Virus record (IMG/VR): IMGVR_UViG_3300031576_000214
Coordinates: 1 to 33,679 of that record
DNA from: a virus
Direction: 5' to 3' (one strand)
DNA: 33,679 nt
Position numbers and translations under genes: made by a program. Within the stretch, counting starts at the first letter, position 1; each line of letters begins with the position of its first letter. Below are positions 6,501-29,253 of the stretch, piece after piece. The notes below the pieces were generated by a model. It did no database searches and was not told the origin of the DNA. It was given only the letters and a program-made list of their open reading frames with translations.

Positions 6501-9500
6501 TTCCTTCATTTGCGGAGTTATTTCTAATCCATGAGCTGTAAATGAAGTTATTTTTTCGCCATCTTTTAATTCAAATTGCATGTCCTGACGTTCTAATGTT
6601 ATGTCCTCAACCTTAGAGTCAAATTTCTTCCCAAACTTATTCGCATAATCCACAAGAATTTTGTCGTAAAATCCTTTCATTCCTTCGCCACCGACTTGAA
6701 AACTCTTCCCTTCTATACGACCGCGATATTCTTCATTCTCTAAAGGAACAAGAGAATCACCTTTATTCTCAATAATATCTTTTGAAACATCTTTGCCAAT
6801 CAAATCACTTAATTGGCTTTCAGTTAAATTTTCCTTTGTTATTTTTTCGACACCGTTTTTTGTGCCGATAACTGCATAACTTCCATCTTTATCTTTAATG
6901 TATTCAATAGCGTCCACTTCTTTTAATAACGCTTCTTTATATCTAACAGCCTGTTGCTCTCCAGTTGTCCAACCAACTTTGTCATAACCTTTTTCAACTG
7001 CCTCACGCATGATTCTTCTAAATGCCAATTCATGCCATGTCTTTTTAAACGGCGCATCAGGGACGCCTCTAGCCCCCTCGCTAAGCTGATTAACTTTTTC
7101 TTGAAGTGCCATTTCTTTTGGAGCTAATTCTTCAATGCTCTTTTCTAATTCTTTTATTTCATCTTTATATTCGTTAGCATTAACAGCATCTTTATAATCA
7201 TTTAATTTCTTATATTTTTCTTGAAGCTCTATCTGAACTTTTCCCCATTCTTTTTGATATTTATCGAATTCTGCCTTACCTTTTCCTTGATATCCTTTTT
7301 TCCTACCTGCTTGATGCCAGTCACTTTGAATTTCTTCAACAAATAAAACCTTATTTCCATCATTATCAACACGATCATTTAAACGAAAATGTGCCAACAC
7401 ATTTCTTTCATCCCAATGACCGCCCTTATACATGCTTTGAGAAATAGAACTACTTCCAAGGAGCTTATTTAATGTAGCTCCACGTTTCAATTCTTCGTTC
7501 GTAAGGGGAATGCCACTGTTATATTTATCATTTAAAGCCTTCAACTCTTTTTGATCTTTGCTAAGATTAACATCTGGAAACATCATTAAAACTTCGCGGT
7601 AATTTTCGCCGCCAGATAATTGCCATCGTGAGAATTTTGTTATACTTTTTGGGGCATCAGCCTCTCGCTGTAATCTAGCCAATTCGTTTATAGCTTCATG
7701 TGGCCATTTATAAGATAATTCTGTCCCATATTTTTCTATTGATTCTTGTCTGAATCTATTTAACGCATTTAATTCTTTAAATTTACCTTCTTCTTTTGTG
7801 ATTTCTTCTAATTTCATCTCATTAGATTTTAAATGATTAAGCAAAGCCTCTTTTGTGGGCTTCGGGTTTGCTTTTAAGAATTCATCCAATCCTGACCAGT
7901 CTTTTTCTTCTTGTTTAATATCTTTAACAATCCCTCGAACCTGTTCAGCGGTAGCAATATTCGGCATCTTTTCACTCAGCGTTTTTTGAAGATTAGAATA
8001 AAACATTGGAGTTTCTTTGGATTGAAACAAACCGCCCGCAGGTACAGCCTCCATTCTCTTGACTACAGGAAGAATTTCTTTTGAAATTTCCGTTCTCGTT
8101 TTCCCTGTCCTAATTGCGATCTTTTGAATAGCCGCATCCCAAATTGCAATATTCGCGTCAAGTGTTTCAGAAGGAATGGCTTCACCGACCATAGCTTTAA
8201 AATTTTGAATTTGCTCTGTGTATTCCAATCCATCGGCTTCTATTTCCTGTCTTTCAATGCCATTGACCAAGTTTTGTTTTTGGGTTTCTGATAAAGCCTG
8301 TACATTCGCTACGTTCGCTTGAATTTGTTCAGGATTTTGGCCCCTCGTGACCTTATCCAAAACTCTAGCGCCAGCAAGGGAAGTCCCGCCGAATAAGCCA
8401 ATAACGCCAATATCAATGAGCCATCTATCTGGGTCTTGATAATGAAATAAAGCGTTTGCCAGTTTGTCCGGCGTAATTTCGCCATCTAATCCCGTGGCTA
8501 CAGTAAGAAAATCAGATAGTCTTTCCTCTCCCAATTCTTCAAGTAACCCGTCATATCCCCAAGTCGCTACGCCTTTTGCAAAGCCCACGCCCTTAGTCTT
8601 CATTGTTAAATCGTCAAGTTTTGCCATGAACCCTTTTGGAAGCCTGGCTGTGACTTGATTCTTAAAAGGTTTAAATAAGAATGCGCCAGCCATTTCGGTC
8701 GAATTTTCAATCCAAGTTTGACCGATTGCTTTTAATACCGCAGTCGTTGGTTTAATTGATGCCTCTTTAAAGAAAGCCTGCCCCTTATCAGTAATCGCAA
8801 AGCTATCATTTACATATTGGTTAGTAATGTTTTTCCCAAGTTTTGCATACATCACATAACCGGTAGTTAATGTTTTGGGCGCAGCCGTTATGAGTAACCC
8901 TCTCGCTGTGACCTGGGCAGTTCTTTGTATTCCTTTTTCAATTAATTCTTTAATGCCCTTTTTCGCGACCTGCGCGGCCACTTTCCCACCTACAGCTACC
9001 GGAGCTAAACCACCCCATGACGCAGCAACCGTAGCTAATTCAATAGCGAACTTTGGCATCTTGGCAAAGTTATAAACAATATTTCCGCCAAGACTAAATC
9101 CTCTTATCTGCATCTGCGCCTGGGTATCTAAGTATTTATAAATTAACGCCTGTTCTTCGGGAGTTGCACTTTTGGGATCTTTTTGTATTTTCTGCATAAT
9201 CCTAAAAACATTTACGTCTTTTGCAATAGATATCGCATCCGCATAAGGAACTACGTCTTCCAACCCTTCACGATAAATAAACTTTCCCGATTCAAGCATC
9301 CCTATTGGCCCAAGTTTATTTATCTCAGCCAATTTATCTGGTGTGTATAAATTTTGAAACCACATCCCATTTTGTTTTACAAAATCAGTCCCGCCATTTA
9401 ATGAATCAACTGGCACGCCACTATTCAATGCCTGTGTATTTATCTTTCCAGTATAAGATTCAATCGGCTCTCTGTTTTCTGGGATAGTGCTTAAATATTC

Positions 9501-14800: not shown

Positions 14801-15421
14801 TTAGCCTCTAATTTGCGTGAATGGCGATGCCTTAACAATCCTCGTAGGGTCTTGTTTTGCGTCGATATTTCTTGCAATGGATAGCATAAATTGTTCTTCT
14901 TTAATGAGTTTTTCCTCTAACTGTCCATCACCCGTCAGATTGAAACAAAGATCAACTGCCAATTTATATTTAAAGTAATCCACAAAATATTTTGGGAATT
15001 CAACCTCGTCAACTATTGCCTGATACCATAAGAATACTTTCGCAGCATCAGTATTTATGTATTTTGGATAAGATTCATATTGCCTAATCGGATTCTGATA
15101 ATTTGGGTCAGTAAAAATATTTCTTATTGTCAGCATATTAACAGGAGTCGTGTAATTGTATTTATACTTGTCCGTATCATCAGCCACAACCTGGCTAGAT
15201 GTTATTTCAATACGCCGCCTAATAAATCTCCATGAATAACCAGAAAGACACGCCAATAAAGTAGTGCCATAAATCCGATTTACTTTTTGGACAAGCTCGC
15301 TTGTGGCATCGTTAAAATCGATCTCATCAGGAACCCCCAAAAGAAATAGGGCCAGATTTTTTATATCCGGCGGCTCTTGGCCGAGTGAAGACCCATAAAA
15401 AGAAATTCCGTATAGCGCCAT
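14801..15421 (-). CDS. Tail tubular protein A (gp11-like adaptor)
   Basis: A 206-aa protein with the pattern of T7 gp11-type adaptors: an early helix pair, LLACLSGYSWRFIRRRIEI at about 55-73, a YKYNYTTPVNMLTIRNIF segment, then FPKYFVDYFKYKLAVDLCFNLTGD and a helical C-terminus. It would form the dodecameric ring between portal and nozzle. It lies two bases before the gp12-like gene, the conserved order. ATG 15421 has the SD AAAGGATG. Confidence 0.85.
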   Translation of the reverse strand: MALYGISFYGSSLGQEPPDIKNLALFLLGVPDEIDFNDATSELVQKVNRIYGTTLLACLSGYSWRFIRRRIEITSSQVVADDTDKYKYNYTTPVNMLTIRNIFTDPNYQNPIRQYESYPKYINTDAAKVFLWYQAIVDEVEFPKYFVDYFKYKLAVDLCFNLTGDGQLEEKLIKEEQFMLSIARNIDAKQDPTRIVKASPFTQIRG

Positions 15422-20637: not shown

Positions 20638-20771
20638 ATCTATACCTCCTATAAAATATAAACTAAATCAGTTTGCACCAATGAAGCCTATGCTTTAATA
20701 GGGGTCTTAACGAGTAGCCCTAGCCTCGGGATTAGTAACCTAGGAATGGTAGCACATCCTAAAATTAAAAA
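20638..20771 (-). promoter_or_regulatory. Leader region of the capsid gene
   Basis: A 134-bp gap, unusual in this packed genome. On the minus strand it holds CCTAG/CTAGG arms 16 nt apart and CCTAT/ATAGG arms around TAAAGC, both weak stems. A possible -35/-10 pair (TTGGTG, 17 nt, TATTTT) lies just before the SD. The structure and promoter are suggestive only. Its place in front of the most-expressed virion gene makes a boost of capsid transcription or translation likely. Confidence 0.35.
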
Positions 20772-26940: not shown

Positions 26941-27078
26941 TTACCCCTTTCGACCGCTTTTGCTTTTGTATCCCGCGGCAAAAGCAGCTTTCATTTGTTT
27001 TACCGCGCCACTTTTCAATTTGTATGTCTTCCCATGACTTCCCCATTTATAACCACTACCCACTTTTTTAATAGGCAT
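26941..27078 (-). CDS. Small basic phage protein (KWGSxGKxY family)
   Basis: A 45-aa, strongly basic protein: MPIKKVGSGYKWGSHGKTYK followed by a helix QMKAAFAAGYKSKSGRKG. The GYKWG...GKTY...AAFAAGY pattern recurs in small proteins of many phages whose function is not known. A very strong SD (AGGAGGTGAAAT) and the 27095-27122 promoter lie directly upstream, so it is the leading gene of that transcript. Confidence 0.7.
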   Translation of the reverse strand: MPIKKVGSGYKWGSHGKTYKLKSGAVKQMKAAFAAGYKSKSGRKG

Positions 27079-27094
27079 ATTTCACCTCCTAAAC

Positions 27095-27628: not shown

Positions 27629-27859
27629 TTAGTATTCATTTTCTTTATCCTTTTTAAAATCAAAAGCATCAGGAGTTTTCATAAAAATACTATCTTTCAT
27701 CGCCTGAAACCAATTTCTTATCGGACTTATTATTACTGATCCACCACAATTAATTCCTATACCACCTTCTTTTGTAACAAAAATTTTATCGGAATAGTAA
27801 TCTCCCTCTATTTCCCTAAACAATTCTCGATCACTGTTTTGACACCCTTGCTCGTTCAT
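27629..27859 (-). CDS. Unknown 76-aa protein
   Basis: Begins MNEQGCQNSDRELFREIEG; acidic N-terminus, Gly-rich centre (KEGGIGINCGGSVIISPI), charged C-terminus (KKDKENEY). A strong SD (AAAGGAGAG) precedes ATG 27859, directly after the structured RNA region. No family recognised. Confidence 0.55.
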   Translation of the reverse strand: MNEQGCQNSDRELFREIEGDYYSDKIFVTKEGGIGINCGGSVIISPIRNWFQAMKDSIFMKTPDAFDFKKDKENEY

Positions 27860-27880
27860 ACATTTCTCTCCTTTATCTTT

Positions 27881-28047
27881 AAATAAGAGGCCGTAAAGTG
27901 GCGTTGCTTTAGGCAGTAATTTTGCGTTAATTAAGTTTGGCTTATCAGCACGGCTTATCCAAACAAACGCAGTATTTACTTTAGCTTATTGCCCCTATCA
28001 TCCGTGATGTCGTTTCTTAAACGCTACCACCTTACGGCTTTTATTTA
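27881..28047 (-). ncRNA. Candidate structured RNA
   Basis: Gene-free 180 bp that folds in the minus-strand sense. P1: GCCGUAAGGUG (28038-28028) with CACUUUACGGC (27900-27890), 11 bp with one G-U that would be an A-C mismatch on the plus strand. An outer extension AAAUAA/UUAUUU is possible. P2: CGUUU-AAG-AAACG (28023-28011), or GCGUU with AACGC (27905-27901) as an extension of P1. P3: AUCA-CGGA-UGAU (28008-27997). P4: AGUAA/UUACU, UGCGUU/AACGCA and GUUUGG/CCAAAC (27980-27915), 17 bp with internal loops and an 18-nt apical loop. The loop CCGUG (27953-27949) can pair with CACGG (28006-28002), excluding P3. The region ends at the SD of the following gene, so leader RNA or riboregulator are alternatives to a free RNA. 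Confidence 0.5.
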
Positions 28048-28271
28048 TTCTCCCCAATAATATTTCCAACTTTTATTAACTCAATATTCGTAGGCTCATG
28101 CCATTCATAAGTTAATTGTTTAAAAACTCTAAAACCTTCCATCCATTCTTTAAGGCCAGATTCAAAGGCATCTCTCATCGTTTTAAATTCTCCCTTAAAT
28201 ATTCTGTATCCTTTAGGCAAAATTCTAAATGAAATATTGTCTGGCTTTGGTGCGTAAACATGGAAGCTCAT
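28041..28271 (-). CDS. Unknown 76-aa protein
   Basis: A protein of mixed strands and helices (MSFHVYAPKPDNISFRILPK, then a helix RDAFESGLKEWMEGF) ending with an IELIKVGNIIG segment. SD AAAGGAGAAGG overlaps the stop of the zinc-ribbon gene (ATGA). Its stop codon is the first base-paired part of the structured RNA region. No family recognised. Confidence 0.55.
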   Translation of the reverse strand: MSFHVYAPKPDNISFRILPKGYRIFKGEFKTMRDAFESGLKEWMEGFRVFKQLTYEWHEPTNIELIKVGNIIGENK

Positions 28272-28659: not shown

Positions 28660-29253
28660 TTAATCCTTTAAATTTTCTAAATATTCTATAAATCCTAAAT
28701 ATTCTTTATGATTTTGGGATTTTTTATCAGGATAAGTTTTTAAACATTTTTGTTTAAATTCTTTTAATGTGCCTTTAAAACATCCGCAAAAAACTAAATC
28801 ATCTTCAAAGCAATATGTTGTCATATCTTTTCTTGAGCCTATGCAAGCAACTTGAATATACCTCTTCTTAGTTTTGGCAGAGCTAAGGTCGGCAGAGCGA
28901 AGGTTGGCAGAGCGAAGGTTGGCAGAGCTAAGGTCGGCAAAGCTAAGGTTGGCAAAGCTAAGGTTGGCAGAGCGAAGGTTGGCAGAGCTAAGGTTGGCAA
29001 AGCTAAGGTTGGCAGAGCGAAGGTTGGCAGAGCTAAGGTTGGCAGAGCTAAGGTCGGCAAAGCTAAGGTTGGCAGAGCGAAGGTTGGCAGAGCGAAGGTT
29101 GGCAGAGCTAAGGTTGGCAAAGCTAAGGTCGGCAGAGCGAAGGTCGGCAGAGCGAAGGTCGGCAGAGCGAAGGTCGGCTCTTATGCCACCATCTATATTA
29201 AATAACCATTTTCTGTGTAACTCTAAAATTTTTGTCAATTCTTTTTTGTCCAC
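28660..29253 (-). CDS. Pentapeptide-repeat protein
   Basis: A 197-aa protein: residues 1-26 form a helical head ([14 protein letters not shown]); residues 27-126 are 20 uninterrupted pentapeptides of form (D/N)L(R/S)(S/F)A. These are expected to fold as a right-handed quadrilateral beta-helix of five turns, a DNA-shaped surface in Qnr/MfpA-type relatives. Residues 127-197 are a separate C-terminal domain with [19 protein letters not shown] and a charged helix. The start is GTG 29253 behind AGGAAGGTGA. Whether it mimics DNA is not shown: the repeat itself has a mix of acidic and basic residues. Family gyrase-protection functions are known only for some members. Confidence 0.88.
28876..29175. 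repeat. 20 x 15-bp tandem repeat inside the pentapeptide gene
   Basis: Twenty units of 15 bp with no spacers; plus-strand unit GGCAGAGCGAAGGTC and close variants. Only three positions vary: bases that change GAC/AAC, CGC/AGC and TCT/TTT in the coding strand. All three other codon positions are fixed, so no unit differs only by a silent change. Long open frames on both strands are a consequence of the 15-bp period and are not genes. Confidence 0.97.

Follow-up and report, generated by a model that had tools for sequence, protein, structure and literature searches.

A candidate structured intercistronic leader ahead of a small orphan gene in an uncultured podovirus-like phage

A gap of 181 nt between two small genes of a virus record is best, if tentatively, explained as the intercistronic 5′ leader of the orphan gene downstream of it (27629-27859), within a leftward operon of an uncultured podovirus-like phage; we hold this explanation at somewhat less than even confidence. 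We infer that the gap would be transcribed as part of the operon mRNA and would fold in the cell into one domain closed by a stem of 12-13 bp, and that the Shine-Dalgarno (SD) sequence of the downstream gene would then lie within a short hairpin immediately 3′ of the closing stem. Such a leader would lower or time translation of the downstream gene, and probably do no more. Access to the SD sequence might in turn be altered by the ends or processing of the transcript, or by ribosomes that terminate on the upstream gene, the stop codon of which is in the outer stem. The evidence does not point to a ligand, a protein partner or an RNA that stands alone.

The interval and its predicted fold

The window, by which we mean the whole 33,679-base virus record analyzed here, carries its larger genes on the minus strand. 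It encodes a head-tail connector of podovirus type (PF12236), and its gene at 24745-26064 matches phage terminase large subunits. All sizeable genes around the interval likewise lie on the minus strand, an arrangement that favors the leader reading. The interval itself separates two open reading frames (ORFs) of 76 aa each and is the longest gap of the window without same-strand ORFs of at least 38 aa; neither flanking gene had relatives in Pfam, PHROGs or viral contigs. The features of the interval, in the order in which the minus strand is read, are as follows.

28041-28271, minus strand: upstream gene, 76 aa, orphan, with its stop codon at 28043-28041
28041-28047, minus strand: 5′ strand (UAAAUAA) of the outer AU-rich extension, overlapping the upstream stop codon; predicted fold
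27860-28040, minus strand: intercistronic interval, candidate leader; minimum free energy (MFE) z -2.58 on the minus strand and -3.74 on the plus strand
28027-28038, minus strand: 5′ strand of the closing stem, GCCGUAAGGUGG; pair probability at least 0.99
28010-28024, minus strand: small hairpin CGUUU-AAG-AAACG (approximate ends) in the MFE fold
28002-28006, minus strand: CACGG, the proposed partner of the apical loop; about half of shuffles give a match of this length by chance
27915-27980, minus strand: internal interrupted stem, 17 bp in three pieces, in the MFE fold
27941-27958, minus strand: 18-nt apical loop holding CCGUG
27890-27901, minus strand: 3′ strand of the closing stem, CCACUUUACGGC; predicted fold
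27880-27889, minus strand: shared strand CUCUUAUUUA, whose partner is either the outer extension or the SD region; predicted folds
27866-27889, minus strand: predicted hairpin CUCUUAUUUAAAGAUAAAGGAGAG around the SD sequence AAGGAG; pair probabilities in a longer transcript
27629-27859, minus strand: downstream gene, 76 aa, orphan, with the SD sequence AAGGAG at a spacing of 8 nt and an ATG at 27859

Two further observations concern the gene content of the window. A small lysine-rich ORF of about 45 aa, starting MPIKKVGSGYKWGS, lies at 26950-27090 on the minus strand, below the 50-aa listing cut-off. On the plus strand, AAGGTTGGCAGAGCT-like units are repeated in tandem at 28875-29180; read on the minus strand, this repeat encodes the pentapeptide repeats of the gene at 28660-29253.

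The closing stem is real as a predicted pairing. A sequence-only reading of this DNA had proposed that the ends of the interval pair over 11 bp (28038-28028 with 27900-27890); the pairing exists, and in our folds it joins 28038-28027 to 27890-27901 over 12-13 bp including G-U pairs, and the pair probabilities are close to 1. The MFE fold recovers the small hairpins of the same reading and its interrupted 17-bp stem near 27980-27915, and the closed domain also contains a weak hairpin around CAUCACGGAUG. Outside the closing stem, a further imperfect AU-rich stem (UAAAUAA/UUAUUUA) can be drawn, which in a longer transcript is predicted to be populated only about 0.6% of the time.

The excess of stability over dinucleotide shuffles is present but modest. 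The MFE of the interval is -44.0 kcal/mol, compared with a mean of -34.5 for its shuffles (z -2.68), a value that none of 200 shuffles matched, and a repeat estimate for the minus strand gave a z-score of -2.41, with 13 of 202 other same-length window folds more extreme. The interval thus lies below its shuffles at z -2.4 to -2.7, in favor of the leader reading; inclusion of the flanks in the fold, however, reduces the z-score to -1.45. Similarly, none of 1000 shuffles of the interval produced a 13-bp stem with a span of 130 nt or more, whereas the whole window holds 10 stems of the size and spacing of the closing stem against 12.7 expected from shuffles. Given that such stems are equally common in the window and in its shuffles, the interval is unusual as a singled-out gap and not as a stretch of genome.

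One G-U pair in the closing stem had been taken as a sign that the RNA is made from the minus strand. The plus strand nevertheless folds as well or better (MFE -45.9, z -3.0 to -3.7) and does so with seven G-U pairs, compared to three in the minus-strand fold. The higher plus-strand score means that the G-U argument fails, and it weighs against the leader reading as well; the minus strand is preferred because of the direction of the surrounding genes, not because of the fold.

The Shine-Dalgarno hairpin

In a longer transcript, the segment directly 3′ of the closing stem (27889-27866) is predicted to form a 9-bp hairpin that would sequester the SD sequence of the downstream gene, the outer pairs having a probability of about 0.95 for four of the five and 0.67 for the fifth. 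Because the outer AU-rich extension uses the 5′ arm of this hairpin as its own 3′ strand, the two states exclude each other, and the SD hairpin state is favored by 3.4 kcal/mol in MFE over the outer-extension state. Both the sequestration and the shared arm are consistent with a leader. The mean SD pairing probability of the downstream gene is 0.74, the fourth highest among 37 genes of the window and the second highest among the genes whose SD match is complete (6 of 6). Comparable SD pairing also occurs at other genes of the window, however, which counts against the leader reading, and we regard the predicted hairpin as a plausible, not an exceptional, brake on translation.

Elsewhere in the window, a 134-nt gap at 20638-20771 precedes the gene at 20637-19807, whose SD sequence AGGAGG is predicted to be strongly paired (0.83). 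It is a second candidate structured leader, in a gap that folds no better than its shuffles (z -0.8).

Search for relatives

A covariance search of the interval against Rfam 15 returned no family at the gathering threshold; at E-values up to 10, the sole match was the snoRNA family sR52 with 12.2 bits (gathering 50). ARAGORN found no tRNA or tmRNA in the interval, and blastn against phages and plasmids yielded only a 24-nt chance match. An IMG/VR pattern scan with three 16-mers gave matches that share little beyond the searched word when compared by blastn (first set) and by a covariance model (all three), and these were set aside. The one IMG/VR match to the paired stem ends (L034) was rejected as well: it lies in a long palindrome at the contig end, occupying positions 1-180 at the start of the contig, which is probably an assembly artifact. 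A 16-bit model match (L047) was dismissed because part of it is coding sequence surrounding the 16-mer used for the search. In GTDB contigs, a 20-mer had no matches and an 18-mer had five, all at loci without the structure.

Furthermore, the terminase used as bait identified 17 related contigs, the closest at 81% terminase identity. The interval was absent from all 17 by blastn and by a single-sequence covariance model, an absence that is not proven because such a model reaches close relatives only and some of the records are fragments. The interval occurs as a single copy in its own genome, with none found in related phages, and the lack of a homologue in any collection searched, and with it of covariation support, argues against the leader reading.

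Strongly folding gaps were also seen in other contigs. In a distant relative (L023), the gene-sparse stretch at 8186-8562 folds very strongly (z -5.7 on one strand and -9.0 on the other), is built on an inverted repeat, GAATAAATGAAATTTATTTTTCGAC / GTCGAAAAATAAATTTCATTTATTC, together with repeats of GGATTTATTTCGTAGAATG, and has no Rfam match. Another contig (L029) contains two strongly folding gaps, at 8933-9100 and 14936-15108 (z about -4), which have the sequence TGTTACACTTTTT in common.

Competing explanations and known systems

Nearly as likely as a leader, and ranked close behind it, is decayed or mis-started code: the interval may be the degenerate 5′ part of a once longer downstream gene, its folding being a modest accident. 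Two features of the region bear on this explanation and on the one that follows it.

27860-27985, minus strand: 42 stop-free codons in the frame of the downstream gene, without ATG, GTG or TTG; coding-like codon usage
28057-28084, minus strand: sigma-70-like site TTGAGT-16-TATTAT, which would start transcription near 28050; sequence match

The codon score of the stop-free stretch is 0.155, within the range seen for code: of true coding windows, 26% score lower, none of 361 off-frame stop-free windows reach this value, and the shuffle probability is about 0.009. The description of the interval as gene-free is consequently not secure, and a coding-like frame inside it could make the fold incidental. 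Against decayed code, the stretch lacks any start codon (ATG, GTG or TTG) and has stops just upstream; the canonical SD sequence and the ATG at 27859 account for the start of the gene; and an open run of 42 codons has by itself an 18% chance. The downstream protein extended through this frame had no protein relative, and decayed code would leave the 13-bp closing stem unexplained. A frame shift joining the 5′ third of the interval to the open frame was considered and rejected, the joined peptide having no PHROGs match. A coding frame across the interval, which the sequence-only reading had named among the outcomes that would count against it, is thus present in part: 42 coding-like codons that have no start. 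Code and structure are about equally well supported.

The remaining explanations are less likely than either a leader or decayed code. We consider it unlikely that the interval is a stand-alone small RNA that is transcribed from a separate promoter near 28057-28084 and works in trans or serves as a scaffold. The sigma-70-like site would place the start of transcription at the outer stem, and closed ends are typical of stable RNAs. Sigma-70-like sites in the region nevertheless occur at chance level (19 found, 25 expected), no intrinsic terminator (a GC-rich hairpin followed by a T run) was found on the minus strand at the 3′ end of the interval, and neither an Rfam family nor a homologue speaks for a small RNA.

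It is also improbable that the structure acts as DNA, namely as an imperfect palindrome with arms at 27880-27901 and 28027-28047 that serves as a protein-binding, replication or mobile inverted-repeat element. The adjacent inverted arms I5 and I11 are each about 90% complementary, and the good folding of both strands is compatible with such an element. As a miniature inverted-repeat element, the interval has terminal inverted repeats with imperfect arms, but no further copies were found in the same or related genomes; moreover, no clear target duplication is visible by eye at its ends, the GC skew does not change sign, and the cumulative curve makes no turn at the interval.

Very unlikely, in our judgment, is a phage-specific class of structured RNA of about 160 nt, in which the closing stem and the SD hairpin would share a strand and one partner (a protein, another RNA or the terminating ribosome) would turn on translation of the orphan gene. 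A ligand-responsive switch, or an unrecognized phage RNA class with alternative folds through CCGUG and CACGG, is hardly credible: the two complementary segments are present as the sequence-only reading described, but a match of at least five was obtained in 50% of 2000 shuffles of the loop and upstream segment, so that the supposedly mutually exclusive 5-nt pairing is at chance level and gives no support for a switch, and neither relatives nor a known family were found. Collectively, the proposal that a folded region precedes an SD-led gene retains modest support, but its switch pairing is at chance, its strand assignment is unsupported and it has no homologue.

Among the closest known systems are the structured leaders between genes of phage polycistronic mRNAs, in which the SD sequence is sequestered or translation is coupled. 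The interval resembles these in its hairpin over the SD sequence, its small downstream gene, the tight operon and the nearby upstream stop codon, and differs in that the hairpin here is a predicted one. With translational riboswitches (Rfam cis-regulatory families), it has in common a closed domain followed by a strand with two exclusive pairings, one of them covering the SD sequence; in contrast to them, it has no Rfam match, conserved aptamer core, homologues or downstream metabolic gene. The riboswitch-like strand shared between the closing stem and the SD hairpin is predicted, with the outer stem state less than 1% populated and an SD pairing that is not unusual for this window. The phi29-type packaging RNA (pRNA) likewise comes from a phage, is comparable in size, and has paired ends and loops that can pair with one another; we dropped this comparison because the interval matches no family in Rfam, the phage has an ordinary terminase large subunit and the loop match is at chance. 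There is no evidence for the interval as a ligand switch, a small RNA or a new class.

The interval is ordinary until relatives or transcript data indicate otherwise. What the case mainly illustrates is that the eye can pick out a closed-looking fold with a complementary loop despite modest statistics and a coding-like frame. Should the fold prove to control translation, the leader would be one more case of local RNA control in tightly packed phage operons.
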